Below are positions 48,847 through 60,098 of a stretch of DNA of 60,919 nt, piece by piece. The stretch comes from Vulcanimicrobiota bacterium. GTDB lineage: Bacteria; Vulcanimicrobiota; JAJTBE01. The stretch covers positions 1 through 60,919 of the forward strand of contig JAIORV010000038.1 of assembly GCA_021107945.1 (NCBI GenBank), in the 5' to 3' direction. The translations under genes and the position numbers were made by a program. The notes under the pieces were generated by a model. It ran no database searches. It saw only the letters and a program-made list of their open reading frames with translations, and was not told where the DNA came from. Position 1 is the first letter of the stretch; every line of letters begins with the position of its first letter.

Positions 48847-50241
48847 TCAGATTTTTCTCTTCTTCTTCTCATCCTCAATCTCAAGAAAACATGCCGGGTC
48901 TATTTGATTCACATCGCCCTCGAACTGCGCTCTTGCACGGCAACCGCCCCTGCAAAACTCAAAATATTTACATTCCCTGCATACCTCATTCCCGGATATT
49001 GCACGGAATAACTGGAGGTTTGCCGAATAAATCCAGATGTCTCTGAGACTATGGTTTCGGATATTTCCTGCATGGAAAGAATCCTTGAGGAAAGAACAAG
49101 GAAAAACGTTACCCTGGGCATCAATCCAGCAATTCAGATTTCCCCCGACGCATCCGAACCCGCTATATATCTTCTTTCCCCTGGACTGGTACGGGAATGA
49201 ATTAATCTTGATTGATGTTGAGGAGTATTTCTGCACTTTTACTATTGTGCGAAAAGCATCCCGCATCTGTTCCGGTGTTAGCAGAACGTGCTTATTTCCC
49301 TTTGCCTGTCCCACCGGTTTAATAAAATCCACACTCCAGTGATTGCACCTGAATTTTTGAACGGCCTTGATAAACGAAAGAACCTCCATATGATTTGTGT
49401 CCATCAATACCGTGTGCAAAGATATGGGGCAATTGAACAGTTCTCTCATGGTCTTTATTGACCTGACAAGTCTTCTGTATGTGCCTTTGCCCCTCTGGTA
49501 ATCGAAGGATTTCTCCGTCGATCCGTCAAAGCTGATGCGAATCCCTTTTATGGGATAGTCGGCCAATTTCTTGGCAAGGACTCTGCCTATGAATAACCCG
49601 GTTGTTGAGAGATATACGCTGACGCCTTTTTCCGATGCGTATTTTATAACTTTCAGAATATCCTTTTCACGACAGAAAGGGTCTCCTCCCCCAAGTGTAA
49701 GTTCAAAAGTACCTATGGCAACCATCTCGTCTATGAGTTTATATATATCTTTCAGGCTCAATTCGTTTTCAAGGGGACCCCGCGTTTCCTGGGAGCAATG
49801 GCGGCAGTTGAGATCGCATTTATTTGTCAATTGAAGGTGAACCCGCAGGGGAGCGGAAATTCTTCCTTTCACCGGCATGTATGGCAGGAGTTCTCCAGCA
49901 AGTTTGGATTCGCTATTAAATAATTCGATGGATTTACATAATTGAATAAATGTAAGGAAGCTTTCTTTTGATATTCTTTTTTTTACTTTCTCCGCTATTT
50001 CGTCCAGATTATTCTTCGAACTCAACTCAAAAATATAAGTAGCATCCCAATCAAAAGGGATGTAATCCCCCTTTTGGAAATCGTAAAAAAGGGAGCCGAA
50101 ATATTCCCTTCTACCCACGAAATGATGCTCTGTCACTAAAGTTCTACCTTTCTTTTTCTCGTACTTCATTAGTTTAATATCAAAGGCTATAAATCCTGCG
50201 AAATAAGAAAAATCGAGGATAAAGAATTTATATTTTCTCAC
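48847..50241 (-). CDS. Radical SAM/SPASM protein with PqqD-like N-terminus
   Basis: 464 aa from the GTG at 50241; the true start may be ATG at 50169 (440 aa). The GTG lies in an R1 repeat, and neither has a good ribosome site. Residues about 30-110 look like the PqqD/RRE fold (FVGRREYFGSLFYDFQKGDYIPFDWDATYIF, about 41-71). Radical SAM ligands are C142-x3-C146-x2-C149, then GGGDPF and SFDG. The SPASM-type C-terminus has CWIDAQGNVFPCSF and CRECKYFEFCRGGCRARA, binding further Fe-S clusters. This architecture is typical of maturases of ribosomal peptides, of sactipeptide/quinohemoprotein type. The substrate is not identified. Confidence 0.85.
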   Translation of the reverse strand: MRKYKFFILDFSYFAGFIAFDIKLMKYEKKKGRTLVTEHHFVGRREYFGSLFYDFQKGDYIPFDWDATYIFELSSKNNLDEIAEKVKKRISKESFLTFIQLCKSIELFNSESKLAGELLPYMPVKGRISAPLRVHLQLTNKCDLNCRHCSQETRGPLENELSLKDIYKLIDEMVAIGTFELTLGGGDPFCREKDILKVIKYASEKGVSVYLSTTGLFIGRVLAKKLADYPIKGIRISFDGSTEKSFDYQRGKGTYRRLVRSIKTMRELFNCPISLHTVLMDTNHMEVLSFIKAVQKFRCNHWSVDFIKPVGQAKGNKHVLLTPEQMRDAFRTIVKVQKYSSTSIKINSFPYQSRGKKIYSGFGCVGGNLNCWIDAQGNVFPCSFLKDSFHAGNIRNHSLRDIWIYSANLQLFRAISGNEVCRECKYFEFCRGGCRARAQFEGDVNQIDPACFLEIEDEKKKRKI

Positions 50242-53751: not shown

Positions 53752-55401
53752 ATGAACCAAACTCTGGTTGAAACAAGAAATCTGACAAAAACATTTTGCG
53801 ATCGAACTCTTTTTGATGATATATCCTTTACCATAGCAACAGGTGAAAAAGTTGGACTCGTGGGACTCAACGGGTCGGGAAAAACAACTCTTTTTAATGT
53901 GATTATGGGAAATGAGGAATATGATTCAGGGATTATTCGAAAAATACCAAAAAAAATAAAAATCGGACATCTCCCCCAGTGGATTGAATTTGTGGATAAA
54001 TCTGTGGGAGAGGTTCTTTACAACTCCACCATGGAGGCGAATATCACCGAGGAATGGCAATACAGGAAGGTCCTGGAAAATATTATGGAAGAGATGAATC
54101 TTGATAATATACCCCTGGATCTCCCCACTTCCCGGTTATCAGGAGGAGAGAGAGTCAGACTTCACCTTGCGGGGCTCTTGATGATGGATCCCGACTTTTT
54201 GATTCTTGACGAGCCTACAAACTTTCTGGATATAAAAGGATTGAGCTGGATGGAGAGTTTCATCAGGAAAAGCAACAGGGGAATTTTACTTGTTTCCCAT
54301 GACAGGTATTTTCTTGACAATGTGGTTGATCGGATAATTGAGATTGACAACGGCTCTATGTTTGAATACGCAGGCAATTATTCGTTTTACAGGTTGGAAA
54401 AAGTGAAGAGAATCGAACTGCAGTGGAAAAAATTCAGGGAGCAGAAAAGGGAGGTGCGCAGGCTCAAATATCTAATTCAGCGTGAGAATCAGTTCGCCCT
54501 GAAGGCGCAAAAAGGTCCCGTGAGAACTGACAATTCCGGCATTGACTGGGGTTTCGTGGGAAGGAGGGCGGCAAAGCATAATAAAAAGGCAAAATCACTG
54601 GAAAAACGTATCGAAAGAATGGATAACGTAGAAAAGCCCCGGAAAAATTACTTTGCTGACATCAGATTCGAGGGAGAGTCCTCTTCCAATGTTGTAGCCA
54701 GGGCAGAGGGACTTTGCAAGCGATTTGGAGATAATCTTCTCTATGAAAATGTCAATTTCACTGTAAGCGCAGGCGATAAGGTGGGAATTCTGGGTGAGAA
54801 TGGCTCCGGAAAAACGACCTTGCTGGAAATATTGCAGGGAGTTGAGCCGCCTACGGAAGGGAAGACATACCTCGTGGAGTCGGATCGTATCGGCTATTTC
54901 TCACAGATATTCAAGGATATGGATGATGATATTATTGTCCTTGACCAGGTGATTGAAAAATCCGGGTTAGATATGCCGTCAGCGCGAAATTTGCTGGCAT
55001 CATTTCTTTTCATAGGCAGGGACGTTTTCAAAAGAACAGGCGATCTCTCAATAGGCGAGAGAAGCAGGCTTGTACTTGCCTGCATCAAGGCAAAAGAACC
55101 TGAAGTTCTGATACTCGATGAGCCGACGAATCACCTGGATGTTGACACCACGGAGATAATGGAGAACGCTCTGGATCAGTTTTCCGGAACGATTATCATT
55201 ATCAGCCACGATCGCTGCCTTCTGGATAACCTTGTTAACCGTCTCCTCGTTATTGAAAAGGGCACGGCAACCATGTACCCGGGAAATTATTCCTATTATG
55301 CATCAAAAAGCCGGTTAGAGCCGGTGGAATATATCGAAGATGAGAAAAAAAGGATGATAAAGCTTCTCCGGGACTGCAAGGCCGTTGAGGAAGAAACATA
55401 A
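53752..55401 (+). CDS. ABC-F ATPase
   Basis: 549 aa, two ABC cassettes and no transmembrane segment. The ATG follows AAAGGGGTGATATT. NBD1: GLNGSGKTT, SGGERVR, LILDEPTNFLD. The inter-domain linker (P-site tRNA interaction motif) is about 230-290 and rich in Lys/Arg (FREQKREVRRLKYLIQRE). NBD2: GENGSGKTT, SIGERSR, LILDEPTNHLDVDTTE, ISHDRC. Family members act on the ribosome as translation factors or antibiotic-resistance proteins (EttA, Uup, ARE type). I cannot assign a subgroup; the long leader would fit a regulated ARE protein but is not proof. Confidence 0.9.
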   Translation: MNQTLVETRNLTKTFCDRTLFDDISFTIATGEKVGLVGLNGSGKTTLFNVIMGNEEYDSGIIRKIPKKIKIGHLPQWIEFVDKSVGEVLYNSTMEANITEEWQYRKVLENIMEEMNLDNIPLDLPTSRLSGGERVRLHLAGLLMMDPDFLILDEPTNFLDIKGLSWMESFIRKSNRGILLVSHDRYFLDNVVDRIIEIDNGSMFEYAGNYSFYRLEKVKRIELQWKKFREQKREVRRLKYLIQRENQFALKAQKGPVRTDNSGIDWGFVGRRAAKHNKKAKSLEKRIERMDNVEKPRKNYFADIRFEGESSSNVVARAEGLCKRFGDNLLYENVNFTVSAGDKVGILGENGSGKTTLLEILQGVEPPTEGKTYLVESDRIGYFSQIFKDMDDDIIVLDQVIEKSGLDMPSARNLLASFLFIGRDVFKRTGDLSIGERSRLVLACIKAKEPEVLILDEPTNHLDVDTTEIMENALDQFSGTIIIISHDRCLLDNLVNRLLVIEKGTATMYPGNYSYYASKSRLEPVEYIEDEKKRMIKLLRDCKAVEEET

Positions 55402-55529: not shown

Positions 55530-58208
55530 ATGAGTTACAATCACTATTTATTCGGTGAATTCAGGGAAAGTCAAGTTCCTCTTTCTATCAGTGATCTCAA
55601 GGATATTACAGCAAGTGCCGAGCGGCAACTGGGGCGGATTCAGGACGTCCCCATTGAAAAAATTGTGGAAATACTCGACCTTCTTGCGGAGAATTGGCTT
55701 GATCCCGAATATAAATACAGGATTCTCGCCCTGGAAAAAATGCCCGAAATTGTGGGACTTTCCAGACAGATGACAACTATCGCCATTGACTCGCTTTTCG
55801 ACAATATGAGAAGGCAGAGTCTCCAGAAAATTCTCCGGGGACATCTGGGAAAATTCTCCTTCCTGGACAAGTTCGAATATAATCCCACTTATGACGGCTA
55901 CTTCAAGGCTCAACCCCTGGGAATCGTTTTGCACGTCAGCCCGGGGAATGTCTTTGTGGGAGGTCCCGACAGCCTGATGTATGGATTCCTTTCCAAAAAT
56001 GTCAACCTTCTGAAGATATCCAGTAGAGACACTTTTTTCCCGTTCCTGTTTGCAAAAAGCTTGCAGGAGATTGATGAGGGCAAATATCTATGCAACTCGT
56101 TTTCAATATTACAGTACTCCGGCGGTGATGAGGATATCGAGAGGGAGATGAAGAAATTTTGTGACGGTATTGTAGTGATAGGCGGAGAAGAGGCGGTGAA
56201 AAGCTATCGCAGGGATCTACCCCTGGGGACAAAATTGATAGAATACGGTCCCAAGTATAGCTTCTCCATAATAACCGCCGAAGGCTTCAATGAAACGGAT
56301 GAAGAGGAGATTTACAAGCGATGCGCCGTGGACGTCGCGATGTGGGAACAAAAAGCATGCTCCTCTCCACAGACTATATATGTTGAAAAGTCCGTGATTG
56401 GCAGGTTTATGGAGGGCTTTCCCCGCTACATGGAGCTTGTGGGAGACAAGCTGCCCCGGGGAGATATTTCATTTGACGAAAGAGTCGAGATTCTCAGGGC
56501 AAGAGAGTTGGCAAAAGCAGACGAGGCGGAAGGAGTCGCCGCGCTCCATCAATCTCCCCAAAGTACCCGGTGGACGGTGATATACGAAGATTCACCGGAG
56601 TTCAAGCTCTCACCGCTGAATCGTACAATATATGTAAAGCCCTTTGCAAGCTGGGCGGAGATTCTCCGGGAAACCGTCATGCTCAAGGATTACCTCCAAT
56701 CTGTGGGAATCCTCTCCACATCGTCACAATTGAAGCTCCTCTCCAAGGCGTTAGCGCGTCTCGGTGTTTCACGCATAACCCGAATCGGGACAATGTGGAA
56801 AGGAAAATCCGGAGCGCCTCACGATTTCGATTTCCCGCTCAGAAAACTCATCAGATGGGTCAGCATTGACTGGATTGACAAACGGTTCGACCTTGGAGAT
56901 ACCGTCGCCCCGGCAAAACCCGCACTCTCCCGCTGGGACAGGCTTCATAACATGGTCAGGTTTGCAAGGACACATTCCGATTTCTACAGGAAACAACTGG
57001 CGGGAATCGGGGAGATTCACAATTACGAGGATTTTCAAAAAGTCCCGCTTCTTACGAAGCACCATATATATAAAAATACTCCTCCCACGGGTGAGGGAAT
57101 GCTGACGACGCACCTTTCAAAAGCATACATTTTTGCAAGCGGAGGATCGACGGGTGAGCCTAAATTCAACTATTACAGTTTCAGGGAGTTGGACAGGGTT
57201 TCGTCGATTCTTGCCGATATATATCAGATTGCGGGGATCACAAGAGACGACACCGTAGCGAACCTTTTCATGGCAGGCTTTTTATGGACATCGTTTATCG
57301 TTGTGAACGACGCCCTTGAAAAGATAGGCTGTGTTTCACTTCCCATTGCCGGAAATGCAGAGATTAACCTAATCCTGCGATATATGGAGTTGTTCAAGCC
57401 CAACGCAGTCGTGGGACTTCCATCGATGATAATTCAACTTGCCGAGGAGATCGAAAGGCGCGGGCTGGATATAAAAATCGAAAAAATCCTGTACGGTGGA
57501 GAACATTTGAGCCCTGAGGCGATAAAATACCTGAAAGAGACTGTTGGGGCAAGAGTTATCCAGTCGGCGGGATATGCGTCGGTTGACGCAGGACCCATAG
57601 GCTACCAATGCCCCGAATGCAGGGGAGGCGTTCACCATCTCCTTTATGGGCATATGTTTATCGAGACGATAGATTCCGAGTCGGAAAGATCCGTGGAGAT
57701 TGACGAAGTCGGCGAAATCGTTGTGACAAACTTCCACAGGAGACTAATGCCTATAATAAGATATCGCACCGGAGACCTGGGCAGGATTCTTTCCCGCTCA
57801 TGCACTTGTATCCACCAGACACCGTTATTTGAATTGCTGGGAAGATGCGACGATATTCTCAGGGTGGGAGCAATGTCCATTTACCCAAACATGATAAGCG
57901 AAGCACTGGGAAAGGTAAGTGAATTAAGCACTACATTTCAACTGGAGGCGGATTACCGGGGTGTAAAGGATATTCTCACCGTGAGAGTGGAAGTAAAAAA
58001 AGAGGGTGGGGATTCCAAAAAGCTTGCGGACATAACAAGACGAACACTTCTGGAGCATGATGAGGAGCTTGATCTTGTCGTTCGCGAAGGATGGCTTGCT
58101 GAACTAAACATCGAGATTCTGCCCCCCGGCGGAATAAAAAGAAACCCCAGGACGGGTAAAATAAAAAGGGTCTTGGATAAACGGAGACAGGGGACGGAGA
58201 ACGGATGA
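55530..58208 (+). CDS. LuxC-like acyl-CoA reductase fused to PaaK-like adenylate-forming ligase
   Basis: 892 aa. Residues 1-455 are LuxC/acyl-CoA-reductase family: GIVLHVSPGNVFVGGPDSL (131-149), Cys277 in MWEQKACSSPQ (nucleophile of the thioester), then the typical C-half. Residues about 465-892 are phenylacetate-CoA-ligase-like: FASGGSTGEPK (535-545, nucleotide loop), VVGLPSMIIQLAEEI, RYRTGDLG and RTGKIKRV near the end. A predicted one-chain route: activate a carboxylate with ATP and reduce the intermediate with NADPH to an aldehyde, equivalent to LuxE + LuxC. No CoA/ACP carrier domain is seen. The last residues (KRRQGTENG) are repeat-derived. Confidence 0.85.
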   Translation: MSYNHYLFGEFRESQVPLSISDLKDITASAERQLGRIQDVPIEKIVEILDLLAENWLDPEYKYRILALEKMPEIVGLSRQMTTIAIDSLFDNMRRQSLQKILRGHLGKFSFLDKFEYNPTYDGYFKAQPLGIVLHVSPGNVFVGGPDSLMYGFLSKNVNLLKISSRDTFFPFLFAKSLQEIDEGKYLCNSFSILQYSGGDEDIEREMKKFCDGIVVIGGEEAVKSYRRDLPLGTKLIEYGPKYSFSIITAEGFNETDEEEIYKRCAVDVAMWEQKACSSPQTIYVEKSVIGRFMEGFPRYMELVGDKLPRGDISFDERVEILRARELAKADEAEGVAALHQSPQSTRWTVIYEDSPEFKLSPLNRTIYVKPFASWAEILRETVMLKDYLQSVGILSTSSQLKLLSKALARLGVSRITRIGTMWKGKSGAPHDFDFPLRKLIRWVSIDWIDKRFDLGDTVAPAKPALSRWDRLHNMVRFARTHSDFYRKQLAGIGEIHNYEDFQKVPLLTKHHIYKNTPPTGEGMLTTHLSKAYIFASGGSTGEPKFNYYSFRELDRVSSILADIYQIAGITRDDTVANLFMAGFLWTSFIVVNDALEKIGCVSLPIAGNAEINLILRYMELFKPNAVVGLPSMIIQLAEEIERRGLDIKIEKILYGGEHLSPEAIKYLKETVGARVIQSAGYASVDAGPIGYQCPECRGGVHHLLYGHMFIETIDSESERSVEIDEVGEIVVTNFHRRLMPIIRYRTGDLGRILSRSCTCIHQTPLFELLGRCDDILRVGAMSIYPNMISEALGKVSELSTTFQLEADYRGVKDILTVRVEVKKEGGDSKKLADITRRTLLEHDEELDLVVREGWLAELNIEILPPGGIKRNPRTGKIKRVLDKRRQGTENG

Positions 58209-58550: not shown

Positions 58551-60098
58551 ATGTTCTGTCCCGATTGTGGATTACAAAATAGAGATGGAGCCAAATTTTG
58601 CGCTACATGCGGCCGGTCGTTAAAAGATTTGCCGGCCTATAAACCTGTTCCAAAGAAAAAAAGAAAAACAAAAAAGAAAGCCGCCGGGAAATCCCAAAGT
58701 AATACCCCGGTAAAAAGAACCACTCCACCGCAAACCTCAACACCACCTCCCCCGCCGCCTCAGATACAGATCACAACCACTCCCCCTTTGATGACAAGCT
58801 CCGGACTTCTCAAGGTGGGAACCATAATAGACAGGAGATACGAGGTTACATCACATATTGCGACCGGTGGAATGGGAGCGATTTACAAGGCGGAAGACAC
58901 CAGGCTTAAAACCGTCGTTGTCATAAAAGAGATGCTGGATTTCTTCCACTCTCACGATGAAAGGAAATATGCCATACAGAGATTCAGGGAAGAGGCCTTG
59001 TTGCTTGCAGATCTAAGGCATCCCAATGTCCCCAGGGTAACGGATAACTTCATCGAGAACAACAGGTATTATCTGATAATGGATTTTGTCGAGGGCAAGA
59101 ACACCGACAGGTTACTTCGCGACAACAGGGGATACGGTTTGCCCGAGGATCGTATAGTCAGGTGGGCGGTGCAGGTCTGTGATGTGCTTGATTATCTGCA
59201 TACAAGAGTGCCTCCCATAATATACAGGGATATGAAGCCCTCGAATATAATGATTTGCGATAATGATCATGTAATGCTGGTGGATTTCGGGATAGCCCGC
59301 CATTTCACACCCAGAAGACCCGGCACAATGATAGGAACTCAGGGATACGCTCCACCGGAGCAATACAAGGGAAACACGGAACCACGCTCGGATCTCTACG
59401 CCCTGGCGGCAACACTTCACAATCTATTATCCGCAAATGATCCCACTCAAGGAGTACCGTTTAATTTCAAACCCATAAGATACTGGCGAAAAGATGTAAG
59501 TGCGGATATGGAGAGGATCCTCTCGAAGGCTCTTAATAACAGGGTTGAGTTGAGATATGCAAATGCGGCGGAGATGAAAAAAGAATTCGTTGCACTTGAG
59601 AAGAAGCTTGAATCATCTCCCCGACATTCCAGTTCGCCTCCTTCGCGACCGTCAGCTTCAAGAGTCGCCCGGACGGCAGGTAAGCCTATGAGACCCCACA
59701 TTATTCACAATAGTCGGCAGAAATCAAGTATTGATGCACAGAATTACTTCGTCAGGGGGAAAAACTATACAGAGGCCGGAGATCTTAGAAGGGCGAAAAG
59801 AGAGCTTGAGAAGGCGATAAAACTGAGCCCTGATTATCCTGAAGCCCATAGCCTGCTGGGATATATTTTAGCCCGACAGGGAAGGACGGTGGATGCCGCA
59901 AAACACCTGCGAAAGGCAACCGCAGGGGCATCGGCAAGCGCCACGGCTCACCTGTATATAGGAAAAGCTTACGCCCGGATGGGGAGAATTGCCGATTCAC
60001 AGAAAGAATACGAGATAGCGAAGCGACTTGATCCTAATATATTCAGCAAGAAAAACCAGGGGTTCCTCGAGAAGCTTATCAGGTCACTTCTACCATAA
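58551..60098 (+). CDS. Zinc-ribbon Ser/Thr protein kinase with C-terminal TPRs
   Basis: 515 aa; the ATG follows TTGGAGGTAATT. An N-terminal zinc ribbon (C3-x2-C6 ... C17-x2-C20), a basic/Pro linker (30-85), then a Hanks-type kinase (about 95-345). The kinase has the Gly loop IATGGMGA, K126 in VVVIKEM, YRDMKPSN (225-232; Tyr replaces the usual His of HRD), DFG (245-247) and APPE. A Ser/Pro/Arg linker leads to about three TPRs (about 395-500). Cytoplasmic, with no transmembrane segment. It is a signalling kinase, and the TPRs probably recruit substrates. Partner unknown. Confidence 0.9.
   Translation: MFCPDCGLQNRDGAKFCATCGRSLKDLPAYKPVPKKKRKTKKKAAGKSQSNTPVKRTTPPQTSTPPPPPPQIQITTTPPLMTSSGLLKVGTIIDRRYEVTSHIATGGMGAIYKAEDTRLKTVVVIKEMLDFFHSHDERKYAIQRFREEALLLADLRHPNVPRVTDNFIENNRYYLIMDFVEGKNTDRLLRDNRGYGLPEDRIVRWAVQVCDVLDYLHTRVPPIIYRDMKPSNIMICDNDHVMLVDFGIARHFTPRRPGTMIGTQGYAPPEQYKGNTEPRSDLYALAATLHNLLSANDPTQGVPFNFKPIRYWRKDVSADMERILSKALNNRVELRYANAAEMKKEFVALEKKLESSPRHSSSPPSRPSASRVARTAGKPMRPHIIHNSRQKSSIDAQNYFVRGKNYTEAGDLRRAKRELEKAIKLSPDYPEAHSLLGYILARQGRTVDAAKHLRKATAGASASATAHLYIGKAYARMGRIADSQKEYEIAKRLDPNIFSKKNQGFLEKLIRSLLP

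Follow-up and report, generated by a model that had tools for sequence, protein, structure and literature searches.

The window, that is the whole analysed stretch of 60,919 nucleotides, has among its genes one for a protein of 892 amino acids in which a LuxC-like reductase and a PaaK-like adenylate-forming ligase are joined (Table 1). The gene is one ATG-to-stop open reading frame without internal stops, as the original prediction of a one-chain LuxC plus ligase had it. Thirteen further genomes from the phylum (Vulcanimicrobiota) have a full-length fusion with 43–49% identity, which makes 14 genomes when the window's own is counted in. The AlphaFold model of the whole fusion chain, built on 43 homologues, reached a pLDDT of 90.7 and a pTM of 0.82. 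A frame error joining two genes was ruled out by the full-length fusion in the 13 other genomes together with this model, and since the fusion is conserved at full length in relatives, neither a frame error nor chance accounts for it.

Table 1. Features of the LuxC-PaaK fusion gene in the window
Feature	Position	Strand	Basis
LuxC-PaaK fusion gene, 892 aa, LeupB-like	55530..58208	+	intact single ORF; full length kept in relatives
LuxC acyl-thioester reductase half, residues 39-443	55644..56858	+	PF05893; aligns with LuxC of the 7xc6 LuxC-LuxE complex
Cys277 codon, predicted nucleophile taking the acyl group from LuxE	56358..56360	+	invariant; on QAC cysteine of solved LuxC
Linker between halves, about residues 447-467	56868..56930	+	pLDDT dip, no regular secondary structure
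PaaK-like adenylate-forming half, residues 470-885, predicted amide ligase	56937..58184	+	PF00501, PF14535, TIGR02155, Foldseek
Nucleotide loop FASGGSTGEPKF, residues 535-546	57132..57167	+	S537, G538, G539, G542 invariant in 43 fusions
A5-like motif YASVD, residues 682-686	57573..57587	+	Asp686 at position where PaaK has Glu
AMP-binding C-terminal subdomain with A10 Lys877 (codon 58158-58160)	57876..58184	+	PF14535 783-885

The N-terminal half belongs to the LuxC family (PF05893), with 299 bits against a cut-off of 21 and an E-value of 6.5e-89. The solved LuxC from Photobacterium (7xc6_A) aligns to it at E 6e-34, and a Foldseek search with the model of the fusion also matched LuxC of 7xc6. 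The nucleophilic cysteine that had been proposed at position 277 falls on the QAC cysteine of 7xc6_A and is invariant in 43/43 fusions. A lack of LuxC similarity and a hidden frame error had been named as the two grounds for giving up the fusion; the PF05893 match and the conservation of the fusion show that neither holds.

Profile searches with PaaK families, suggested along with PF05893, matched PF00501 (residues 532–733), PF14535 and TIGR02155 in the C-terminal half. TIGR02155 (PaaK) covers this half with an E-value of 5.9e-50, but its 170 bits lie far below the equivalog cut-off of 646.3, so that the half is PaaK-like and not a phenylacetate-CoA ligase. PF04443 (LuxE) was not found here in the Pfam scan, which returned PF00501 and PF14535 only. 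Foldseek related the model to the PaaK structures 2y27/2y4n (TMt about 0.85) and to the family members NatL2 (6siw) and ClxA (9s3l), which were crystallised with salicylate-type substrates. NatL2 and ClxA, with their amide and ester chemistry, show that CoA ligation is not all that the PaaK family does. The nucleotide loop noticed at the outset is retained, with its four invariant residues (Table 1). Residue 686 is Asp in 41 of the 43 fusions and Glu in the other two, and Asp in 42/42 free PaaK relatives from the same operons; the A10 lysine is invariant in 43/43 fusions. With the SGG loop, the A5 Asp and the A10 Lys retained, fused and free PaaK units form one subfamily by motif. The proposed absence of a carrier domain between the halves was confirmed, as no phosphopantetheine carrier family appeared in the Pfam scan of the fusion and the linker comprises about 20 residues; over the blocks that include residues 451–470, the pLDDT falls to 77 and 68.

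Other genes of the window were also inspected. Directly upstream of the fusion (53752–55401) lies a gene for an ABC-F protein, which with 456 bits exceeds the NCBIfam ribosomal-protection-like cut-off of 380 bits; loci of Bacteriovoracaceae also have ABC-F-like genes within a few kb of the fusion, perhaps by coincidence. Downstream (58551–60098), a Ser/Thr kinase with an N-terminal zinc ribbon and C-terminal TPRs is encoded, and a zinc-ribbon protein adjoins the fusion in one further locus (L016). On the reverse strand (48847–50241), a Radical SAM/SPASM protein, extended by 120 residues at its N-terminus, is akin to peptide maturases and NirJ-type enzymes, scoring under the cut-offs of the families shown.

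No luciferase (luxA/luxB) lies near the fusion, as had been stated. The wider statement that no lux gene is near is true within the window but misleading for the genome, as its only LuxE (PF04443) is encoded on another contig (C44, 37140–38294). An absence of LuxE from the genome was thereby ruled out. The fusion gene is the one strong LuxC of this genome, the sole other match being weak (31 bits, contig C4). A GNAT gene lies directly 5' of LuxE on contig C44, and LuxE is followed after 3 nt by a small unannotated membrane protein (L050:10799–11425), possibly a membrane partner. In UBP9 relatives, a protein with weak similarity to it (E 5e-5 to 3e-6) is encoded between LuxE and the fusion. Both LuxE and GNAT of C44 are homologous to operon members in relatives, the partners to be looked for with a LeupB-type enzyme (see below). 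The acyl-carrying residue of LuxE, Cys370, does not vary among 27 LuxEs, and in the alignment with LuxE of 7xc6 it falls on the KGC cysteine. Across the phylum, a LuxE above 100 bits occurs in all 14 genomes that have a full-length fusion and in 0/44 other listed genomes; several of these 44 have weaker LuxE matches beside a stand-alone LuxC. Distance matrices of LuxE and the fusion agree (Mantel r 0.87, 0/2000 permutations as high; Spearman 0.71 for the own row), as would be expected of a relocated partner rather than of an unrelated LuxE. Since LuxE is present and Cys370 of LuxE and Cys277 of LuxC are both kept, the LuxE-to-LuxC transfer route looks intact, and the PaaK half looks like an addition to this route, not a substitute for LuxE.

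A public genome collection was scanned with two peptide patterns and 80 loci were kept; taxonomic counts are lower bounds and biased by the patterns. Among the matches listed, 78/80 loci encode the fusion, which sets, together with the 14 genomes of the phylum, a lower bound for the number of homologues that share it. LuxE adjoins the fusion in 74 of these 78 (once as a fused LuxE domain), with a median gap of 73 nt between the domains, and in related loci the LuxE gene (PF04443) lies directly upstream of the fusion. The remaining four comprise two loci that start at a contig end and two with LuxE farther off. Of the 78 fusion loci among the matches listed, 60 encode a GNAT, 46 a free PaaK and 34 an MFS transporter; the GNAT and MFS counts rest on profiles built in this analysis, and loci near contig ends undercount. 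In a single case, an Armatimonadetes MAG (L051:7069–11013), LuxE, LuxC and PaaK form one frame of 1314 amino acids. The fusion recurs across many phyla, and the core of LuxE and LuxC-PaaK is present in at least Armatimonadota-like lineages, Elusimicrobiota, Riflebacteria, Bacteroidota, Bdellovibrionota, Thermodesulfobacteriota, Bacillota, Actinomycetota, Pseudomonadota and one archaeal MAG.

Some of these loci show particular surroundings. In Bacteroidota, the cassette (L061:6965–9942, L065:12673–14145) stands beside genes for a SpoIIE phosphatase, an anti-sigma-type HATPase and probably STAS-type proteins, as if governed by a partner-switching module. A protein of about 450 amino acids lies beside the cassette in nine loci (L082:6185–7549 as well as L059, L061, L062, L065, L066, L069, L071 and L097); the one member scanned gave no Pfam match, its start looks PaaK- or LuxE-like, and it may be another, diverged ligase. 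Two conjugative Salmonella enterica plasmids (L134:10704–16462, L141:2872–7749) bear a leup-type operon of LuxE, LuxC-PaaK and PaaK, with GNAT in one of the two, amid recombinase and toxin-antitoxin genes, so that the pathway is mobile. No near match of the Salmonella operon was found in the E. coli genomes searched.

Gene order gave the first pointer to a known pathway. An annotated Streptomyces plasmid has in a row PaaK, MFS, GNAT, acyl-protein synthase (LuxE) and acyl-CoA reductase (the fusion), and the order on a Salmonella plasmid is LuxE, fusion, PaaK, GNAT, from which the leupeptin pathway was suspected. A literature search for a LuxC-PaaK fusion as such returned nothing relevant. The operon leupABCD is known from Xenorhabdus, Photorhabdus and Klebsiella (Li et al. 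2020, as cited in passages of PMC8283571, PMC11480411 and PMC11212599), and a passage of PMC11212599, citing Li et al. 2020, attributes leupeptin of X. bovienii to separate AMP-dependent ligases for the amide bonds and a reductase for the aldehyde. Typing primers (leupA_f and leupB_r, 1235-bp product) have been published for leupABCD, which spans 5.83 kb with a transporter adjacent (PMC8283571). A sample of 392 genomes from the Xenorhabdus family gave no leup primer sites. The genus Klebsiella was then located by another primer from the same source (PMC8283571) before leup primer sites were searched there. Among the 20 Klebsiella-genus genomes searched, leupA_f matched exactly, once, and the same genome has an exact leupB_r site in the right orientation, with a predicted amplicon of 1235 bp, equal to the published one. 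As both sites are exact and 1235 bp apart, this operon is leupABCD. Its four genes encode LuxE (378 aa), LuxC-PaaK (802 aa), PaaK (446 aa) and GNAT (305 aa), and an MFS gene lies immediately upstream of them. LeupB is thus, by its domains, the same kind of LuxC-PaaK fusion. The same four genes lie within 5.77 kb in a locus of X. bovienii (L117).

The fusion of the window shares 26% identity with Klebsiella LeupB. In a maximum-likelihood tree of the fusions, a firmly supported branch (100/100) separates a leup side, with Enterobacterales, Actinomycetota, Massilia and others and a free PaaK in 12/12, from a second side, on which the window protein falls into a clade of seven rows (100/99) that has no free PaaK. 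No LeupC-type free PaaK was found in the loci of this clade, the other PaaK-like genes of the window's genome reached just 74–78 bits, and no MFS gene was seen adjoining the pathway genes in this genome. With the genes on two contigs, no free PaaK of the subfamily and no adjacent MFS, leupeptin itself is an unlikely product. On this sequence evidence, the window fusion is a distant relative of LeupB, the key enzyme of leupeptin synthesis; it is LeupB-like by architecture and partners. The LuxC-PaaK architecture, the LuxE partner gene and GNAT, the A5 Asp and the SGG loop are shared with LeupB, whereas the low identity, the separate clade, the lack of a free LeupC-type PaaK and of an adjacent MFS, and the split of LuxE/GNAT and fusion over two contigs set it apart from leupABCD.

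Like the LuxC-LuxE fatty acid reductase of luminous bacteria (7xc6), the window protein has the LuxC fold with a nucleophilic Cys and a separate LuxE with an acyl-carrying Cys, but it has an extra PaaK-like half, no luciferase near it and probably an amino acid derivative as substrate. The ligase half shares the fold, the AMP-binding motifs and the A10 Lys with PaaK-family ligases (PaaK1 2y27/2y4n, NatL2 6siw, ClxA 9s3l), yet differs by its fusion to LuxC, by Asp in place of the PaaK Glu in A5 and by its score far below the equivalog cut-off. Carboxylic acid reductases (CAR) likewise combine adenylate-forming and reductase domains in one chain with an aldehyde expected, but here the carrier domain is missing, the reductase is of the LuxC kind and a separate LuxE is kept.

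Leupeptin is acetyl-Leu-Leu-argininal; to make it, two amide bonds have to be formed, besides one acetylation and one reduction. As the leup operon provides one GNAT, two PaaK-type units, LuxE and LuxC, the simplest assignment, which we infer, is that the PaaK units make the amides and LuxE loads LuxC. No assignment of ligases to bonds was found in the secondary literature searched, and no assays of enzymes from the window's clade were found in the texts searched. The window protein is probably a distant LeupB-type enzyme in a leupeptin-type, NRPS-free route that would yield a small amino or peptide aldehyde with an N-acyl group. The original prediction had likewise expected an aldehyde from the LuxC reductase and the PaaK-like ligase. 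For substrates, step order, division of labour between the ligases and product, we infer the following course. The GNAT encoded upstream of LuxE on C44 would N-acylate an amino acid, and the fused PaaK half would adenylate the acyl-amino acid and join a second amino acid via an amide bond. The free LuxE would then adenylate the new C-terminal carboxylate and hold it as a thioester on Cys370, from which the acyl group would move to Cys277 of the LuxC half to be reduced with NAD(P)H to the aldehyde. As only the fused PaaK unit is found in the window's clade, an N-acyl amino or dipeptide aldehyde is predicted, not leupeptin.

The fusion had first been read as a carboxylate reductase in its own right, i.e. 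a self-contained, carrier-less carboxylic acid reductase whose PaaK half activates the acid (as AMP ester or CoA thioester) and passes it to Cys277. The catalytic residues kept in both halves fit this, as does the fact that PaaK enzymes normally form CoA thioesters and that LuxC is also annotated as acyl-CoA reductase. However, LuxE, the usual loader of LuxC, is kept beside the fusion in 74/78 loci among the matches listed and in all 14 fusion genomes of the phylum, one MAG has it in the same chain, and the activating enzymes of the operon match what leupeptin needs (two amide bonds and one reduction), which makes a self-contained reductase unlikely. A fused ligase that stands in for LuxE as acid activator is equally not supported, given the perfect co-occurrence of LuxE and fusion in the phylum and the genome's own LuxE with its nucleophilic Cys. 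A destination of the aldehyde in lipids, wax or a surface glycan, with LuxE/LuxC reducing fatty acids and the PaaK half as an extra acyl-CoA ligase, finds a parallel in LuxE/LuxC pairs of flagellar glycosylation islands with fatty-acid genes (PMC7874193). It is rather improbable here, as the neighbour clusters listed show no recurring fatty-acid or glycan gene next to the fusion, whereas GNAT, free PaaK and MFS do recur, and as the operon architecture equals leupABCD, the maker of a small peptide aldehyde. A chance or assembly artefact joining two neighbouring genes, conceivable because the window is a contig of a draft genome with 215 contigs, can be dismissed in view of the stop-free frame and of the same full-length fusion in 13 other genomes of the phylum and in 78/80 loci of an independent collection (among the matches listed).

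Leupeptin and other peptide aldehydes find wide use as inhibitors of proteases, and in Klebsiella they are precursors of signals (PMC11480411). It can tentatively be put forward, as a serious possibility, that the clade represents unrecognised minimal pathways (GNAT, LuxE and LuxC-PaaK) spread over several phyla, through which uncultured bacteria and perhaps an archaeon would make N-acyl amino or dipeptide aldehydes other than leupeptin that act as signals or inhibit proteases. How LuxE and the fused ligase share the work can now be tested directly, and the core of LuxE and LuxC-PaaK offers a ready genome-mining handle for NRPS-free peptide aldehydes. The production of small secreted aldehydes of the leupeptin type may extend to many phyla of uncultured bacteria.
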